Positions 5,366 through 34,671 of a DNA stretch of 64,000 nucleotides are shown in pieces. The notes under the pieces are model-generated. The model was not told where the DNA came from, did not search any database, and worked only from the letters and a program-made list of their open reading frames with translations. The position numbers and the translations under genes are program-made. The DNA comes from an uncultured Acidobacteriaceae bacterium (GTDB lineage Bacteria > Acidobacteriota > Terriglobia > Terriglobales > Acidobacteriaceae): NCBI GenBank assembly GCA_903904755.1, contig CAIVDV010000024.1:1-64000 (forward strand), written 5' to 3'. Every line of letters starts with the position of its first letter. Positions within the stretch are counted from its first letter, which is position 1.

Positions 5366-5811
5366 AGAGCCTTTTCGACCAGGCAACGGCTGAGGAAGTG
5401 AAGCAGCGCATGGCGCATCTGCAGCCGGAAAGCCAGCACCTGTGGGGCAAGATGAGTGCCGCCCAGATGCTGGCTCACTGCTCGGTCGGGATTGAAGTTT
5501 CCCTGGGAGACAAGTTCAACCGGCAGGTTCTGCTGGGCAAGATTTTTGGCAGGTTTGCCAAGGCAAGCCTGTTCAGCGGCAAGCCCATGGGCCACAGCCT
5601 GCCGACGGCAAAGAATTACGTGGTGGCAGACGATCGCGAACTGAACGCAGAACGCGAAAAGCTCACCGGATTGATTGACAGGTTTCAGGCAGGTGGGCCA
5701 GCGGGATGCACGAATAACCCGCATGCTTTTTTCGGAAGACTGCTGGCAAGTGAGTGGGCGATTTTGAACTACATTCATCTCGACCATCATCTGAAGCAGT
5801 TTGGGGTTTAG
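5362..5811 (+). CDS. DUF1569/DinB-like protein inside the sdh operon
   Basis: The protein is 149 aa and matches the DUF1569 pattern within the DinB/YfiT four-helix superfamily. It starts with a helix, has WGKMSAAQMLAHC with a conserved His, carries NPHAFFGRLLASEWAILNYIHLDH near the end with two His residues, and has no signal peptide. Members are usually putative metal-dependent enzymes of unknown substrate. The ATG overlaps the sdhC stop (ATGA), so it is translationally coupled to sdhC and cotranscribed with sdhA and sdhB. A gene of this family is not a standard part of succinate dehydrogenase; a role in the complex is possible but unproven. Confidence 0.75.
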   Translation: MKSLFDQATAEEVKQRMAHLQPESQHLWGKMSAAQMLAHCSVGIEVSLGDKFNRQVLLGKIFGRFAKASLFSGKPMGHSLPTAKNYVVADDRELNAEREKLTGLIDRFQAGGPAGCTNNPHAFFGRLLASEWAILNYIHLDHHLKQFGV

Positions 5812-5852
5812 GGTACGCCAGAATCCGTGGCGGAAAGGGATAAGGAAGACTC

Positions 5853-7613
5853 ATGGCAGCACCGAAAATTATCGTGGTAGGCGGCGGACTCGCCGGTCTG
5901 GCCGCTGTTATCAAGATCGCCGAAGCCGGCGGCAATGTGGATTTGTTCTCAATCGTCCCCGTCAAGCGCTCCCACTCGGTCTGCGCCCAGGGTGGCATCA
6001 ACGCCGCCAAGAACCTGAAGGGCGAGGGCGACACCACCGACAAGCACTTTGACGACACGATTTACGGCGGCGACTTCCTGGCCAACCAGACCCCGGTCAA
6101 GGCGATGTGCGAAGCCGCTCCCGGCATCATCGATCTGCTTGACCGCATGGGCGTGCCCTTCAACCGCACTCCCGAGGGACTGCTGGACTTCCGCCGCTTC
6201 GGTGGCACCCTGTACCATCGCACCGCCTTTGCCGGCGCAACCACCGGGCAGCAGCTCCTTTACGCGCTCGACGAGCAGGTTCGGCGCTATGAGTCCGAGG
6301 GCAAGGTCCAGAAGTACGAGGGCTGGGAATTTCTCTCCGCCGTCATCGACACCGCCGGGGTTGCCCGCGGCATCTGCGCCATGGACCTGCGCACCATGGA
6401 AGTGCGCACCTTTGCGGCTGATGCCATCATCATGGCCACCGGCGGCATCGGCGCCATCTTCGGCAAAAGCACCAACTCGGTTGTCTGCACAGGATCGGCC
6501 CAGTCCGCGCTCTACCAGCAGGGCGTTTACTACGCCAACGGCGAGTTCATCCAGGTGCACCCGACTTCCATCCCTGGCGAAGACAAGCTCCGTCTGATGT
6601 CGGAGTCGGCCCGCGGCGAAGGTGGCCGCGTTTGGGTGCCCCGCACCCTCGGGGACAAGCGTCCCGCCAAGTCCATCCCTGAGGGCGACCGCTGGTACTT
6701 TCTGGAAGAGTGGTATCCCAAGTACGGCAACCTCGTGCCGCGTGACGTGGCCACCCGCGCCATCCACAAGGTTGTGTACGAGCATGGCCTGGGCATCGAC
6801 GGGCAGCCCATGGTCTACCTCGACCTGACCCACATTGACCGCGAGACCCTGAACCGCAAGCTCGAAGGCATCCTCGAAATCTACGAGAAGTTTGTCGGCG
6901 ACGACCCGCGCGAAGTTCCCATGAAGATATTCCCGGGCATGCACTACACGATGGGCGGCCTGTGGGTCGACTTCAACCAGATGACCAACATCCCCGGCAT
7001 CTTTGCCGCCGGCGAGGCCGAGTACCAGTACCACGGTGCCAACCGCCTTGGTGCCAACTCGCTGGTAAGCTGCATCTACGGCGGCTTCCAGAGCGGCCCC
7101 AACGCGCTGGCATATGCCAAGAGCCTTCCGGCCCAGCAGGGCGACGGTGGCCACGCTGCCGAGCTTACCCGCCAGAAGGGGCTGAACCAACTGCTCCTCT
7201 CAAATCAGGGGACGGAGAACCCGTTCAAGCTCTGGCGCGAACTGGGCGACACCATGAGCAAGAATGTCACCGTCGTCCGGATCAACAAGAACATTGAGAC
7301 GACCGAGGCCAAGATCGAGGAACTTCTCGAGCGCTACAAGAAGGTGAACCTGAGCGACCGCAGCCAGTGGGCGAACACCAGCTTCGCCTTTGCCCGCCAG
7401 CTCTACAACATGCTGGAGCTGTCGAAGGTGGTCGCCATCGGTGCCCGCCTCCGCGACGAGTCCCGCGGAGCTCACTTCAAGCCCGATTTCCCGGAGCGCA
7501 ACGACGAGCAGTTCCTCAAGACCACCAAGGCCAGCTTCGTCAACGGCGCTCCGAAGATTGAGTACGAAGACGTGGACACCAGCCTCATCAAGCCGAGGCC
7601 GCGTAAATACTAG
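5853..7613 (+). CDS. sdhA: Succinate dehydrogenase flavoprotein subunit
   Basis: The protein is 586 aa. The FAD-binding dinucleotide motif VVGGGLAGLAA is at residues 8-18. H41 in RSHSVCAQGGINAA is the expected site of covalent FAD attachment. The capping and active-site segments include HPTSIPGEDKLRLMSE and ARGEGGRVWV, followed by MHYTMGGLWVD and GANRLGANSLVSC. The length and motifs match the Bacillus/Chlorobi type-B enzyme. It oxidises succinate to fumarate (or works in reverse) and passes electrons to SdhB. AAGGA lies just ahead of the ATG. The order sdhC-x-sdhA-sdhB is that of type-B operons with one extra gene. Confidence 0.95.
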   Translation: MAAPKIIVVGGGLAGLAAVIKIAEAGGNVDLFSIVPVKRSHSVCAQGGINAAKNLKGEGDTTDKHFDDTIYGGDFLANQTPVKAMCEAAPGIIDLLDRMGVPFNRTPEGLLDFRRFGGTLYHRTAFAGATTGQQLLYALDEQVRRYESEGKVQKYEGWEFLSAVIDTAGVARGICAMDLRTMEVRTFAADAIIMATGGIGAIFGKSTNSVVCTGSAQSALYQQGVYYANGEFIQVHPTSIPGEDKLRLMSESARGEGGRVWVPRTLGDKRPAKSIPEGDRWYFLEEWYPKYGNLVPRDVATRAIHKVVYEHGLGIDGQPMVYLDLTHIDRETLNRKLEGILEIYEKFVGDDPREVPMKIFPGMHYTMGGLWVDFNQMTNIPGIFAAGEAEYQYHGANRLGANSLVSCIYGGFQSGPNALAYAKSLPAQQGDGGHAAELTRQKGLNQLLLSNQGTENPFKLWRELGDTMSKNVTVVRINKNIETTEAKIEELLERYKKVNLSDRSQWANTSFAFARQLYNMLELSKVVAIGARLRDESRGAHFKPDFPERNDEQFLKTTKASFVNGAPKIEYEDVDTSLIKPRPRKY

Positions 7614-29178: not shown

Positions 29179-29285
29179 CCGACAGATTCGCAGGTGCCCG
29201 GGCCAGGCAGCCCCTTCGCTGCTTACAGCCCGGGCCCCAGCCCTTGCCACGTTGGACTCACCAGTCGCATGAGGGAGATGCCTCA

Positions 29286-29588
29286 ATGACTCAGAACGCC
29301 GACAGGCTCACAGTAAGGGCTGCGGATATCTCCGGCTCCACCTTTCAGGACGTCAACCTTACCAGTGCCACCTTCACCGCCGCCTGCCTCGCCTGGTCCG
29401 TCTTCCGCGACGTCGATCTCGCAGGAGCATCCGTCGAAAATGCCTCCCTCGCCGGAGCCACCTTCCGCGATGTCAACCTCAGCGGCGCAACTTTCTCCAA
29501 CTGCCGCACAGATGGGCTCACCATCAACGGCATCTCTTTGGATGACCTGCTCGCAGCCTGGCGGCACATGAATCCCAACGCTCGGTAG
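29286..29588 (+). CDS. Small pentapeptide-repeat protein
   Basis: The protein is 100 aa and consists almost wholly of A(D/N)LXX-type pentapeptide repeats (for example STFQD VNLTS ATFTA, then SVFRD VDLAG ASVEN ASLAG ATFRD VNLSG ATFSN). These fold as a right-handed quadrilateral beta helix. The last 20 residues form a short helix. Functions of such short proteins vary and cannot be deduced. GGGAG lies ahead of the ATG. Confidence 0.82.
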   Translation: MTQNADRLTVRAADISGSTFQDVNLTSATFTAACLAWSVFRDVDLAGASVENASLAGATFRDVNLSGATFSNCRTDGLTINGISLDDLLAAWRHMNPNAR

Positions 29589-31784: not shown

Positions 31785-32807
31785 CTACTCCGAGCCGAAC
31801 AAATCATGGGCTGCGGGGGGCAGCGCCGTCGGGTCCACCGCAGCCTGGGGTGCCTGCCCCTGCGCTTCCCGCGCGCTGTGTGCGATCTGCCCGGCTTTTG
31901 CCCCGTCAAATCCATGGAAGGTCCGATAGGGATCGCCGGGCAACACTCCTTCCGCCTCCAGCGCAATCCTCAGCCGCCGCCGGAACTCCCGCATTGCGGG
32001 TACCTGGCGCGCAGGCTGCACCCGGAAGAGCACGGGATAGACCACTTCAGGCCCACGGATGGCGTCCACCCCCGGCAGCACCGGATCGCTCAAAAACAGC
32101 TCCCGGTACTCAGGGTCGTTGCGGAACTCCAACGCCAGCTTTCTCAGCAGCCCCAGAGCCCGTTCCGGCGGAACAGAAATATCGATCGAAATCGGCAGAT
32201 TCACCAGCGTAAAGTCCCGGCTCAGGTTTGCCACCGTCGTTATCTGCGAGTTCGGCACGACGTACAGCGTCCCGTCGGAGTCGCGAATCTCGGTACGCCG
32301 CAGCGTCATCGCCTCCACGACGCCGCTCATCCCGGTCAGCCGGACCTGGTCGCCCACGTTGAACTGGTCCTCCAGCAAAATCAGCGCACCATTCAGGATG
32401 TCCTTCACAATCGTCTGCGCGGCCAGGCCAATCGCAATCCCCGCCACCCCGGCAGAGGCCAGCAGCGGTCCGAGGTTGACGCCAAGAATTGTCAGCATTT
32501 GAAGTGCTGTCAAAGTCCATAACACGGCATTGAGGGTGGTCTGCAGCACCCCGGCCATGGTCTTGACCTGCGACCGATGGCCTGGGCTGGCAGGGCCCCG
32601 CTCTGCCACCGTGACCATCCGCCGCGTACTCATCCTGATGATTCGGCTCAGGATAAGCGTCACAATCAGAATTGTGAGCAGGTGCGGCAGCTTGGCGTGC
32701 AGAAACTCCTGCCCGTCCGCGATCCACTCGTCGAGCACCTTGCCAAGGAAGCGCCCTTCCGCAAAGATTCCAGTACGTAACATGGCCGCAAAAAGAATCA
32801 TGGTCAC
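31785..32807 (-). CDS. MscS-family mechanosensitive channel
   Basis: The protein is 340 aa. Two to three membrane helices lie in the first 130 residues. The pore helix shows LLASAGVAGIAIGLAAQTIVKDILNGALILLEDQFNVGDQV, the MscS TM3 Gly/Ala pattern, followed by the beta domain (RRTEIRDSDGTLYVVPNSQI) and the alpha/beta vestibule. It should open under membrane tension to release solutes after osmotic downshock. A proline-rich tail of about 30 residues is extra. It is divergent from the tandem gene array with 28 bp between the starts. Confidence 0.92.
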   Translation of the reverse strand: MTMILFAAMLRTGIFAEGRFLGKVLDEWIADGQEFLHAKLPHLLTILIVTLILSRIIRMSTRRMVTVAERGPASPGHRSQVKTMAGVLQTTLNAVLWTLTALQMLTILGVNLGPLLASAGVAGIAIGLAAQTIVKDILNGALILLEDQFNVGDQVRLTGMSGVVEAMTLRRTEIRDSDGTLYVVPNSQITTVANLSRDFTLVNLPISIDISVPPERALGLLRKLALEFRNDPEYRELFLSDPVLPGVDAIRGPEVVYPVLFRVQPARQVPAMREFRRRLRIALEAEGVLPGDPYRTFHGFDGAKAGQIAHSAREAQGQAPQAAVDPTALPPAAHDLFGSE

Positions 32808-32829
32808 TCTCCCTCTTTCTTTCTATACT
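32801..32829 (+). promoter_or_regulatory. Promoter of the tandem exported-protein array, leaderless geometry
   Basis: TGGTCA (32801-32806) and TATACT (32824-32829) are 17 bp apart. The -10 box ends 6 nt before the ATG at 32836, so the transcript would start at or next to the start codon. The -35 overlaps the first codons of the divergent MscS gene. Confidence 0.5.
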
Positions 32830-32835
32830 GTCGCC

Positions 32836-33291
32836 ATGAAAAGTCCGGAATTTCCTGTGAAATCGGTCAGGCGAATGGGGGCAAAGCCGCTGGTGCGCGC
32901 TCTCTGCTGCCTGGTCATGTGTGCTGCCGTCCCGCTGGCCGGCGGACTTGCGGTTGGCCAGATGCCCCCCGGTCCTCCGGGTTCTTCCCGTCCCGACACC
33001 TTGCCCCCTCTTCCCCCCGGGGCAGACATGCACCCCGACGGAGTTCGGCTGCTTAAGGACTCCATGATTCAGCAGGACAACCAGAAGAAGGTTGCCGAAG
33101 AGAATCGAGTCCGCCAGCAGCAGCTCGCTGACGACACCGCCAAACTCCTCGCCCTGGCCACCGAGCTGAAAGCCGAAATGGACAAGACCAGCAAAGACAC
33201 GCTGAACATGAACTACGTCCGGAAGGCCGAACAGATTGAAAAGCTCGCTCACCAGCTCCGCGACAAGATGAAAGCATCTCTGGGGAACTGA
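32836..33291 (+). CDS. Exported helical protein, tandem family member 1
   Basis: The protein is 151 aa with an N-terminal signal or anchor (about 18-42), a Pro/Gly-rich linker, and a charged helical C-terminal half. The end reads AEQIEKLAHQLRDKMKASLGN, matching the shared end of the next three genes. Upstream helix: LLALATELKAEMDKT, matching LA-x2-L-x2-E in the others. I do not recognise the family. The gene begins a plus-strand array right after a predicted leaderless promoter, divergent from MscS, and ends 4 bp before the next member. Confidence 0.75.
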   Translation: MKSPEFPVKSVRRMGAKPLVRALCCLVMCAAVPLAGGLAVGQMPPGPPGSSRPDTLPPLPPGADMHPDGVRLLKDSMIQQDNQKKVAEENRVRQQQLADDTAKLLALATELKAEMDKTSKDTLNMNYVRKAEQIEKLAHQLRDKMKASLGN

Positions 33292-33295
33292 GCCC

Positions 33296-33724
33296 ATGCC
33301 TGCAACGTCTCCAGTCCGTCGCAGCCTTGTTGCCGCTTCCGCGGTCTCCCGCGCTTGTGTGGTTGCTTTGTGCATGGCCACCTTTGCCAACGGAATAGCT
33401 CAGGCGCCCGGAGGCCCGGTTACCGGAAACAATCACGTTCCCGTCAACCCGCTCGCGAATCGCTACACCGATGGTGCCGGACTCTTCGACGACACACCCA
33501 AAGTCAAGCTCGATCCGAAACAGGTCGAGGTGGTCAACCGGCTCCGTCTGGAAACCATGCAATCGGAAACCGACAAGGTCCTGCTGCTGGCTCGCCATCT
33601 GAATGCCGAGGTCCGCCGGGACCTTCCCGAAGCAGCCCGCGCCCGGGAACTTGCCGAGGCTGCCCAGGTTGAGCATCTGGCCCACGTCGTCCAGCAGTTG
33701 ATGAAAGCAAGCGCAGGAAACTGA
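33296..33724 (+). CDS. Exported helical protein, tandem family member 2
   Basis: The protein is 142 aa. The N-terminal hydrophobic segment (about 18-36) ends near GIAQAP. The C-terminal half is helical with VLLLARHLNAEVRRD and ends QVEHLAHVVQQLMKASAGN, the family signature with EH in place of EK. It starts 4 bp after member 1 stops, so the two are cotranscribed. No enzyme motif is visible; a role in the periplasm or at the inner membrane is inferred from the signal segment only. Confidence 0.75.
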   Translation: MPATSPVRRSLVAASAVSRACVVALCMATFANGIAQAPGGPVTGNNHVPVNPLANRYTDGAGLFDDTPKVKLDPKQVEVVNRLRLETMQSETDKVLLLARHLNAEVRRDLPEAARARELAEAAQVEHLAHVVQQLMKASAGN

Positions 33725-33753
33725 TTTTCGGCAGGGAAGGGAACTCCGCACGC

Positions 33754-34182
33754 ATGATTCTTCGCGCAACCAATCCGGCTGGTGGCCTGCTCCTCCCCCG
33801 CGTCTTGCGCTGGTCCGTTGTCCTTGCCACCCTGGCGGCTTCCGCGGCTTCCGGGGTTCCGGCCCAGCAAAGCTCAAACCCCTTCTATCGCCCCGGCGAG
33901 CAGATTCGCACCATTCCTGCCAACGGTGCTGATGCGGCGTCCGGGAGCACGTCGGCAAATATCCCCATGGACAAGAAAGCCGCCGATGAGCTCAACCGGA
34001 AGCGCGTGAGCGATCTTGAAAAGCGCACGGCCCGCATGGTGGAGCTCGCCCGCCATCTCACGGAAGAGGTTTCCACCCAGCCGCAGGCCAACTCAGTTGC
34101 CCAGCAGTTGAAGCAGTTGGAAGAAATTGAGAAGCTGGCGCATCATGTCCAGCAGCGCATGACCGAGTCCTGGGCACGCTGA
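33754..34182 (+). CDS. Exported helical protein, tandem family member 3
   Basis: The protein is 142 aa. After a signal segment ending VPAQQ it has SSNPFYRPGE, closely like SSTNPLYP in member 4. The helical end carries MVELARHLTEEVS and EEIEKLAHHVQQRMTESWAR. Members 3 and 4 are the closest pair of the array. The gene follows member 2 by 29 bp. There are no cysteines in the mature part and no metal or catalytic motif that I can see. Confidence 0.75.
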   Translation: MILRATNPAGGLLLPRVLRWSVVLATLAASAASGVPAQQSSNPFYRPGEQIRTIPANGADAASGSTSANIPMDKKAADELNRKRVSDLEKRTARMVELARHLTEEVSTQPQANSVAQQLKQLEEIEKLAHHVQQRMTESWAR

Positions 34183-34233
34183 TTCGGTCCGGCGCCCACC
34201 AGCGACAGTCCGGCAATTTCGAAAGGCACCAGC

Positions 34234-34671
34234 ATGGCAGACGGCACGCAAGCAGAGGCCGGCACACTTCGAAAGCGCGGCTGGATCCGTGCATTCTTTG
34301 TGGCAGCGTCGGTGATTCTAGCCGCGGTCGTCGCAATCGTTGCCCAGCAGAGCACCAACCCCCTGTATCCCACCCGCGAAAACGCCACTCCGTCTCCACC
34401 GGCACAGGCCGATGGAAGCCCAAATCAGTTCGACCCCTTCGCCCGGCCCACTGAGGAGCAGCGCAAGGCCCTCGCAGCCATGAATCTTCAGCGCCGCAAA
34501 GACCTCGTCACCCAAACCGACCGCATGGTGGAGCTCGCCGGCAAGCTCAACGACGAGGTCAGCAAAGACCCCGCGGCACGCGTGACCGAAGTGCAACTGA
34601 TACAAGTGGCCGAGATTGAAAAGCTCGCCCATCAGGCCCAGCACCGCATGAAGGAATCCTGGGCCCGGTGA
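34234..34671 (+). CDS. Exported helical protein, tandem family member 4
   Basis: The protein is 145 aa. An N-terminal hydrophilic stretch of about 18 residues precedes a membrane segment (RAFFVAASVILAAVVAIVAQQ), which may be an anchor rather than a cleaved signal. The mature part starts QQSTNPLYP and ends with MVELAGKLNDEVSKD and AEIEKLAHQAQHRMKESWAR. It is the last member of the array and lies about 150 bp before the E1 dehydrogenase gene. Confidence 0.75.
   Translation: MADGTQAEAGTLRKRGWIRAFFVAASVILAAVVAIVAQQSTNPLYPTRENATPSPPAQADGSPNQFDPFARPTEEQRKALAAMNLQRRKDLVTQTDRMVELAGKLNDEVSKDPAARVTEVQLIQVAEIEKLAHQAQHRMKESWAR

Follow-up and report, generated by a model that had tools for sequence, protein, structure and literature searches.

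The described systems closest to the locus reported here are Skp/OmpH (PF03938) and Spy/CpxP/Metal_resist (PF13801). Like the proteins of this locus, Skp/OmpH is exported, small, largely helical and free of catalytic residues, and it was the top fold match by rank alone. However, the Skp fold combines helical tentacles with a beta-barrel trimerisation body, whereas the model obtained here is all-helix, and with this model the best Foldseek match to the Skp fold had an E-value of 0.26 and a TM-score of 0.20. The PF03938 gathering score was reached by none of the four copies described below, and 2 of 94 members of their family matched it at an E-value of 0.014 at best. Spy/CpxP resembles these proteins in being an exported helical hairpin, for which a stress-type periplasmic role is conceivable. 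Three of the 94 members matched PF13801 without meeting its gathering score (best E 0.0046), and the LTxxQ motif of Spy/CpxP was absent from the four copies when these were read by eye.

Acidobacteriota are abundant in soil, and the phylum is poorly understood. The window analyzed here is a stretch of 64,000 nucleotides from an uncultured Acidobacteriaceae bacterium, in which the first-pass annotation had reported four consecutive plus-strand genes for proteins of 142–151 aa, divergent from an MscS gene. An ORF check found the four genes as claimed, and the Pfam matches of the minus-strand neighbor bore out its identity (Table 1), with NCBIfam MscS models matching it below their cut-offs. The gaps between copies 1-2, 2-3 and 3-4 were short (4, 29, and 51 bp, respectively), and with this layout the four copies likely form one operon. 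The start codons of mscS and copy 1 were 28 bp apart, and short motifs between mscS and the array recurred in near relatives. A leaderless-type promoter, which had also been proposed, is plausible for copy 1 because TATACT at 6–7 nt from an ATG recurred in four same-genus relatives (L008, L009, L010, and L011; in L009 this ATG is not the gene start), the promoter itself being assigned by consensus match.

Table 1. Coordinates of the array, its divergent neighbor and the double-hairpin loci
Feature	Position	Strand	Description
mscS, divergent partner	31785..32807	-	340 aa; Pfam PF00924 (E 5e-18) and PF21088 above cut-off
Sigma-70-like promoter TGGTCA-17-TATACT	32801..32829	+	consensus match; ends 6 nt before copy 1 ATG
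Copy 1	32836..33291	+	151 aa; adjoins mscS, first of array; signal peptide, Pro-rich linker, two helices
Copy 2	33296..33724	+	142 aa; same family, long branch in tree
Copy 3	33754..34182	+	142 aa; QQSSNPFY after signal peptide; sister of copy 4
Copy 4	34234..34671	+	145 aa; QQSTNPLY after signal peptide
Double-hairpin homologue loci (L160-L168, L178)	around 5700-6600 of each		directly upstream of VWA gene

A search of the whole source genome with copy 4 returned copies 3, 1, and 2 at E-values of 4e-19, 1.9e-6, and 3.6e-6, respectively, followed by a next match at 0.6; identity of the other copies to copy 4 was 25–43%. When the mature parts were aligned by the Smith-Waterman method, all six pairs scored 10.6–25.9 z-units above composition-preserving shuffles, and 0 of 1000 shuffles attained any observed score. 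The pairwise similarity claimed at first pass thus stands beyond composition, and the membership of the array proteins in one family is near certain. Among the motifs listed at that stage, the LAxxLxxE helix was present in 4/4 copies and QQSxNPxY was confirmed in copies 3 and 4, whereas the C-terminal LAHxxQxxMxxS, said to be common to all, was exact in copies 2–4 and read LAHQLRDKMKAS in copy 1, with R in place of Q. The mature parts contained no Cys, in agreement with the claim of a cysteine-free core; Cys does occur in the signal segments of copies 1 and 2. The family genes are under purifying selection, with dN/dS values of 0.11–0.42 for close orthologue pairs where computable (one pair was saturated).

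Signal-like N-termini were found across the family, and a near-invariant Gln (Q42) followed the signal in the alignment. The proteins are therefore predicted from sequence to be exported, with this Gln near position +1 of the mature protein. The AlphaFold2 model of copy 1 contained a helix at residues 17–30, a disordered Pro-rich stretch and a hairpin (69–117/125–150), with block pLDDT values of mostly 87–97. The predicted fold is a single hairpin, modelled with high confidence, whose two amphipathic helices carry a broad Leu/Ile/Val/Ala stripe. Scored as positions with a mean hydrophobicity above 1.5, there was one broad stripe per helix, comprising positions 97, 104, 105, 107, 111, and 115 and eight or more positions between 123 and 145. 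Cys beyond residue 35 occurred in 12 of the 94 members and is thus not conserved. The members at L058, L075, L077, and L179 carried RRxFL-type signals that looked Tat-like by eye, in contrast to ordinary Sec-like signals elsewhere.

Searches of Pfam, NCBIfam, PHROGs, and PDB sequences found no family above cut-off, in line with the first-pass remark that no familiar family was recognized. Two sub-threshold matches were considered and rejected: the PA2816 family glutamine-rich protein (NF041511), matched by copy 4 only at 19.8 bits against a 50-bit cut-off over residues 27–87, mostly outside the hairpin, and LEPBI_II0033 (PDB 10lm, E 0.064), whose alignment lay in part on the signal peptide. 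A profile built from the four copies, on the other hand, detected relatives in 24 of the 41 related genomes and, on genome contigs, 59 loci nearly all labelled Acidobacteriota. With a 94-member profile, the protein family was present in 33 of 35 evenly drawn genomes of the taxonomic family of the window (E ≤ 0.001, 14 candidates scored per genome). In the window's own genus, it was found in 6 of 14 other genomes. A fuller rescan covering 19 genomes recovered members in G026 and G039 and yielded no convincing member in eight same-genus genomes, G016, G286 or G322. All four window copies matched the Terriglobia single-hairpin profile (alignment A2) and showed its traits, namely an N-terminal signal, the near-invariant Q, and the core DTxKLLxLAxELKxEVDK...LSxxVIxKAEEIEKLAHxVKxKM. 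The earlier suggestion of a paralogous exported helical family is supported: it is a genuine envelope protein family, undescribed until now and to date seen only in Acidobacteriota. In two MAG contigs, labelled Rhodanobacteraceae (L062) and Verrucomicrobia (L094), the genes flanking the family gene followed an Acidobacteriaceae-type order, and because of these neighbors the contigs are probably misbinned or mislabelled.

Following up weak matches in further Acidobacteriota families brought out exported proteins about 175 aa long, and in each of the 10 loci read their gene lay directly upstream of a VWA-type gene. In most of these loci the genes belonged to an operon-like block that also contained an uncharacterized exported gene (about 220 aa) and, in many cases, an FxLYD-like gene. 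When tested, two of these VWA proteins matched TIGR03436 (E about 1e-61); the other eight were assigned by eye. In profile-profile comparison with the Terriglobia hairpin profile, the N-terminal and C-terminal hairpins of the 175-aa proteins scored 97.8% and 95.1%, against 0.3% and 1.0% for the reversed controls, and a reciprocal search from the double-hairpin profile recovered Terriglobia members at E-values down to 2e-11. The single-chain model had four helices (pTM 0.69). Judged from profiles and model, the 175-aa protein is a homologue that joins two hairpins in a single chain, a form that is new here. Both of its hairpin halves are homologous to the array copies, and the layout of signal and linker is alike, but it has two hairpins per chain and lies in the VWA/FxLYD-like block with no mscS alongside. 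This unannotated exported protein family occurs in most of the genomes sampled from the taxonomic family of the window and, as a double form, in other Acidobacteriota, and these natural single and double hairpins offer a direct structural test of assembly. Short single-hairpin members (94–103 aa) were also seen in other Terriglobia families (L169, L170, and L176), near aspartate-carbamoyltransferase-like (pyrB-like) or glutamine-synthetase-like (glnA-like) genes, not mscS, by eye.

The mscS gene was directly upstream of, and divergent from, the family gene in 43 of 59 loci. This count includes L087, where a long ORF antisense to mscS obscures it, as in L049; both were located by tblastn. In the window's taxonomic family, the two genes were adjacent and divergent by coordinates in 39/39 genomes with both; chance adjacency is about 0.0005 per genome, and the 39 cases are not independent events because the genomes share ancestry. 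The pairing persisted amid differing neighbors, including DUF255/Bkd and rho/Fur/PPase (apart from MscS, VWA, and FxLYD, genes were named by eye from the sequences). In 12 of the 59 loci (12 of the 16 without upstream mscS), rho was directly upstream of the family gene, and the order rho, mscS, family gene in L057, L070, L081, and L090 points to a loss of mscS from the rho-type loci. Seven genomes had mscS without the family gene (G003, G005, G006, G008, G013, G014, and G286). Six of these, same-genus genomes of about 3 Mb, carried mscS at 60–63% identity and lacked the family gene, whose site, where visible, was occupied by a large membrane protein (767–793 aa) or unrelated DNA; G286 showed the order DUF255-mscS-Bkd with no family gene between. 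Conversely, the family gene was present without mscS of this type in seven genomes of the window's taxonomic family (G020–G024, G104, and G274; G021 and G023 are 88–89% complete), and in G104 (L181, 1829-2065) an mscS fragment matching only the C-terminal part adjoined an intact hairpin gene. Presence or absence of the two genes was not significantly associated (Fisher p = 0.20), so the link to mscS is one of adjacency, and given the independent losses of both genes this may reflect promoter architecture or gene-order inertia. The first-pass annotation had regarded the array as a dedicated module and had asked whether MscS is always adjacent. It is usually but not always so: mscS is the most stable neighbor, and the wider contexts include rho and, elsewhere, VWA genes. 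An obligate MscS subunit, always encoded with the channel, is likewise unlikely, since seven genomes each way keep one gene alone. The stable divergent pairing connects a periplasmic protein with osmotic or mechanical protection in a testable way.

Local duplication with divergence had been put forward as the origin of the array. The tree agrees for copies 3 and 4 (support 100/99); it also suggested two older paralogue classes, the first closer to mscS and the second closer to the Bkd gene, which often adjoin, with the deep forks open (93/82) and several long branches. The two older classes appear to sit together in the array, which is thus not solely a product of recent duplication. Loci held one to six copies (six in L053), with further copies elsewhere.

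We favor, with a probability of about 0.4, the reading that the hairpins pair into four-helix bundles which share their regulation with MscS and serve as a scaffold or holdase in the periplasm. The array would make small, exported helical-hairpin proteins held in the periplasm on a disordered Pro-rich tether. Two hairpins would pair into a four-helix bundle, as the natural double-hairpin homologue suggests, and because hairpins of different as well as the same paralogues could pair, the array copies would give mixed bundles. With no conserved cysteine or enzyme-like motif, a scaffold or holdase would be the most likely action of such bundles. They would be made together with MscS from the divergent control region that the two share, as one part of a response to envelope tension or osmolarity change, and the array may in this sense have the membrane-stress function first suggested for it. 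Fold searches with both models returned only generic helical bundles, none significant, so the holdase or scaffold assignment is an argument from anatomy; such searches are uninformative for bundles of this kind, and their outcome is no evidence for a new fold.

Somewhat less likely, although the strongest of the alternatives, is that the proteins are chaperones or envelope-stress proteins of general periplasmic function with Skp- or Spy-like action; the mscS adjacency would then be conserved gene order with no special osmotic role. Survival of the family without mscS in seven genomes, including the one with an mscS remnant, and the rho-type loci point in this direction, as do the top-ranked, non-significant fold matches to Skp and the occasional sub-threshold Metal_resist and OmpH matches; the mscS pairing, however, persists while other neighbors change, and the proteins have neither the LTxxQ motif nor Pfam membership. 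A structural component, acting as a short peptidoglycan-outer membrane tether or spacer by analogy with Braun's lipoprotein, would account for the export signal, flexible Pro-rich stretch, helical hairpin and multicopy arrays, but it is improbable, as the family alignment conserves neither a lipobox Cys nor a C-terminal Lys. We also consider it doubtful that the proteins are dedicated accessories or gating modulators of the window MscS that would bind its periplasmic face: the 39/39 adjacency and the divergent layout with 28 bp between start codons would suit such a partner, whereas each gene persists alone, and the one to six copies per locus, plus others elsewhere, would be odd for a channel subunit. 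A bolder form of the bundle reading, to which we give similarly little weight, is that mixed bundles might sense strain in the envelope, or buffer it, and tune MscS, with the double-hairpin version serving VWA proteins elsewhere. We know of no precedent for such a bacterial mechanosensitive-channel partner, and the titles and abstracts on mscS partners or on the hairpin family in Acidobacteria contained nothing relevant. The idea that the four genes are unrelated and share only the composition of charged, helical sequences, which their low identity might suggest, is refuted by the own-genome search, specific to the copies, and the shuffle test, and for the distant homologues by the negative reversed-profile controls.

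Elsewhere in the window, a small pentapeptide-repeat-like ORF (29244-29588) was observed between glutathione-peroxidase-like and DUF255-like genes.
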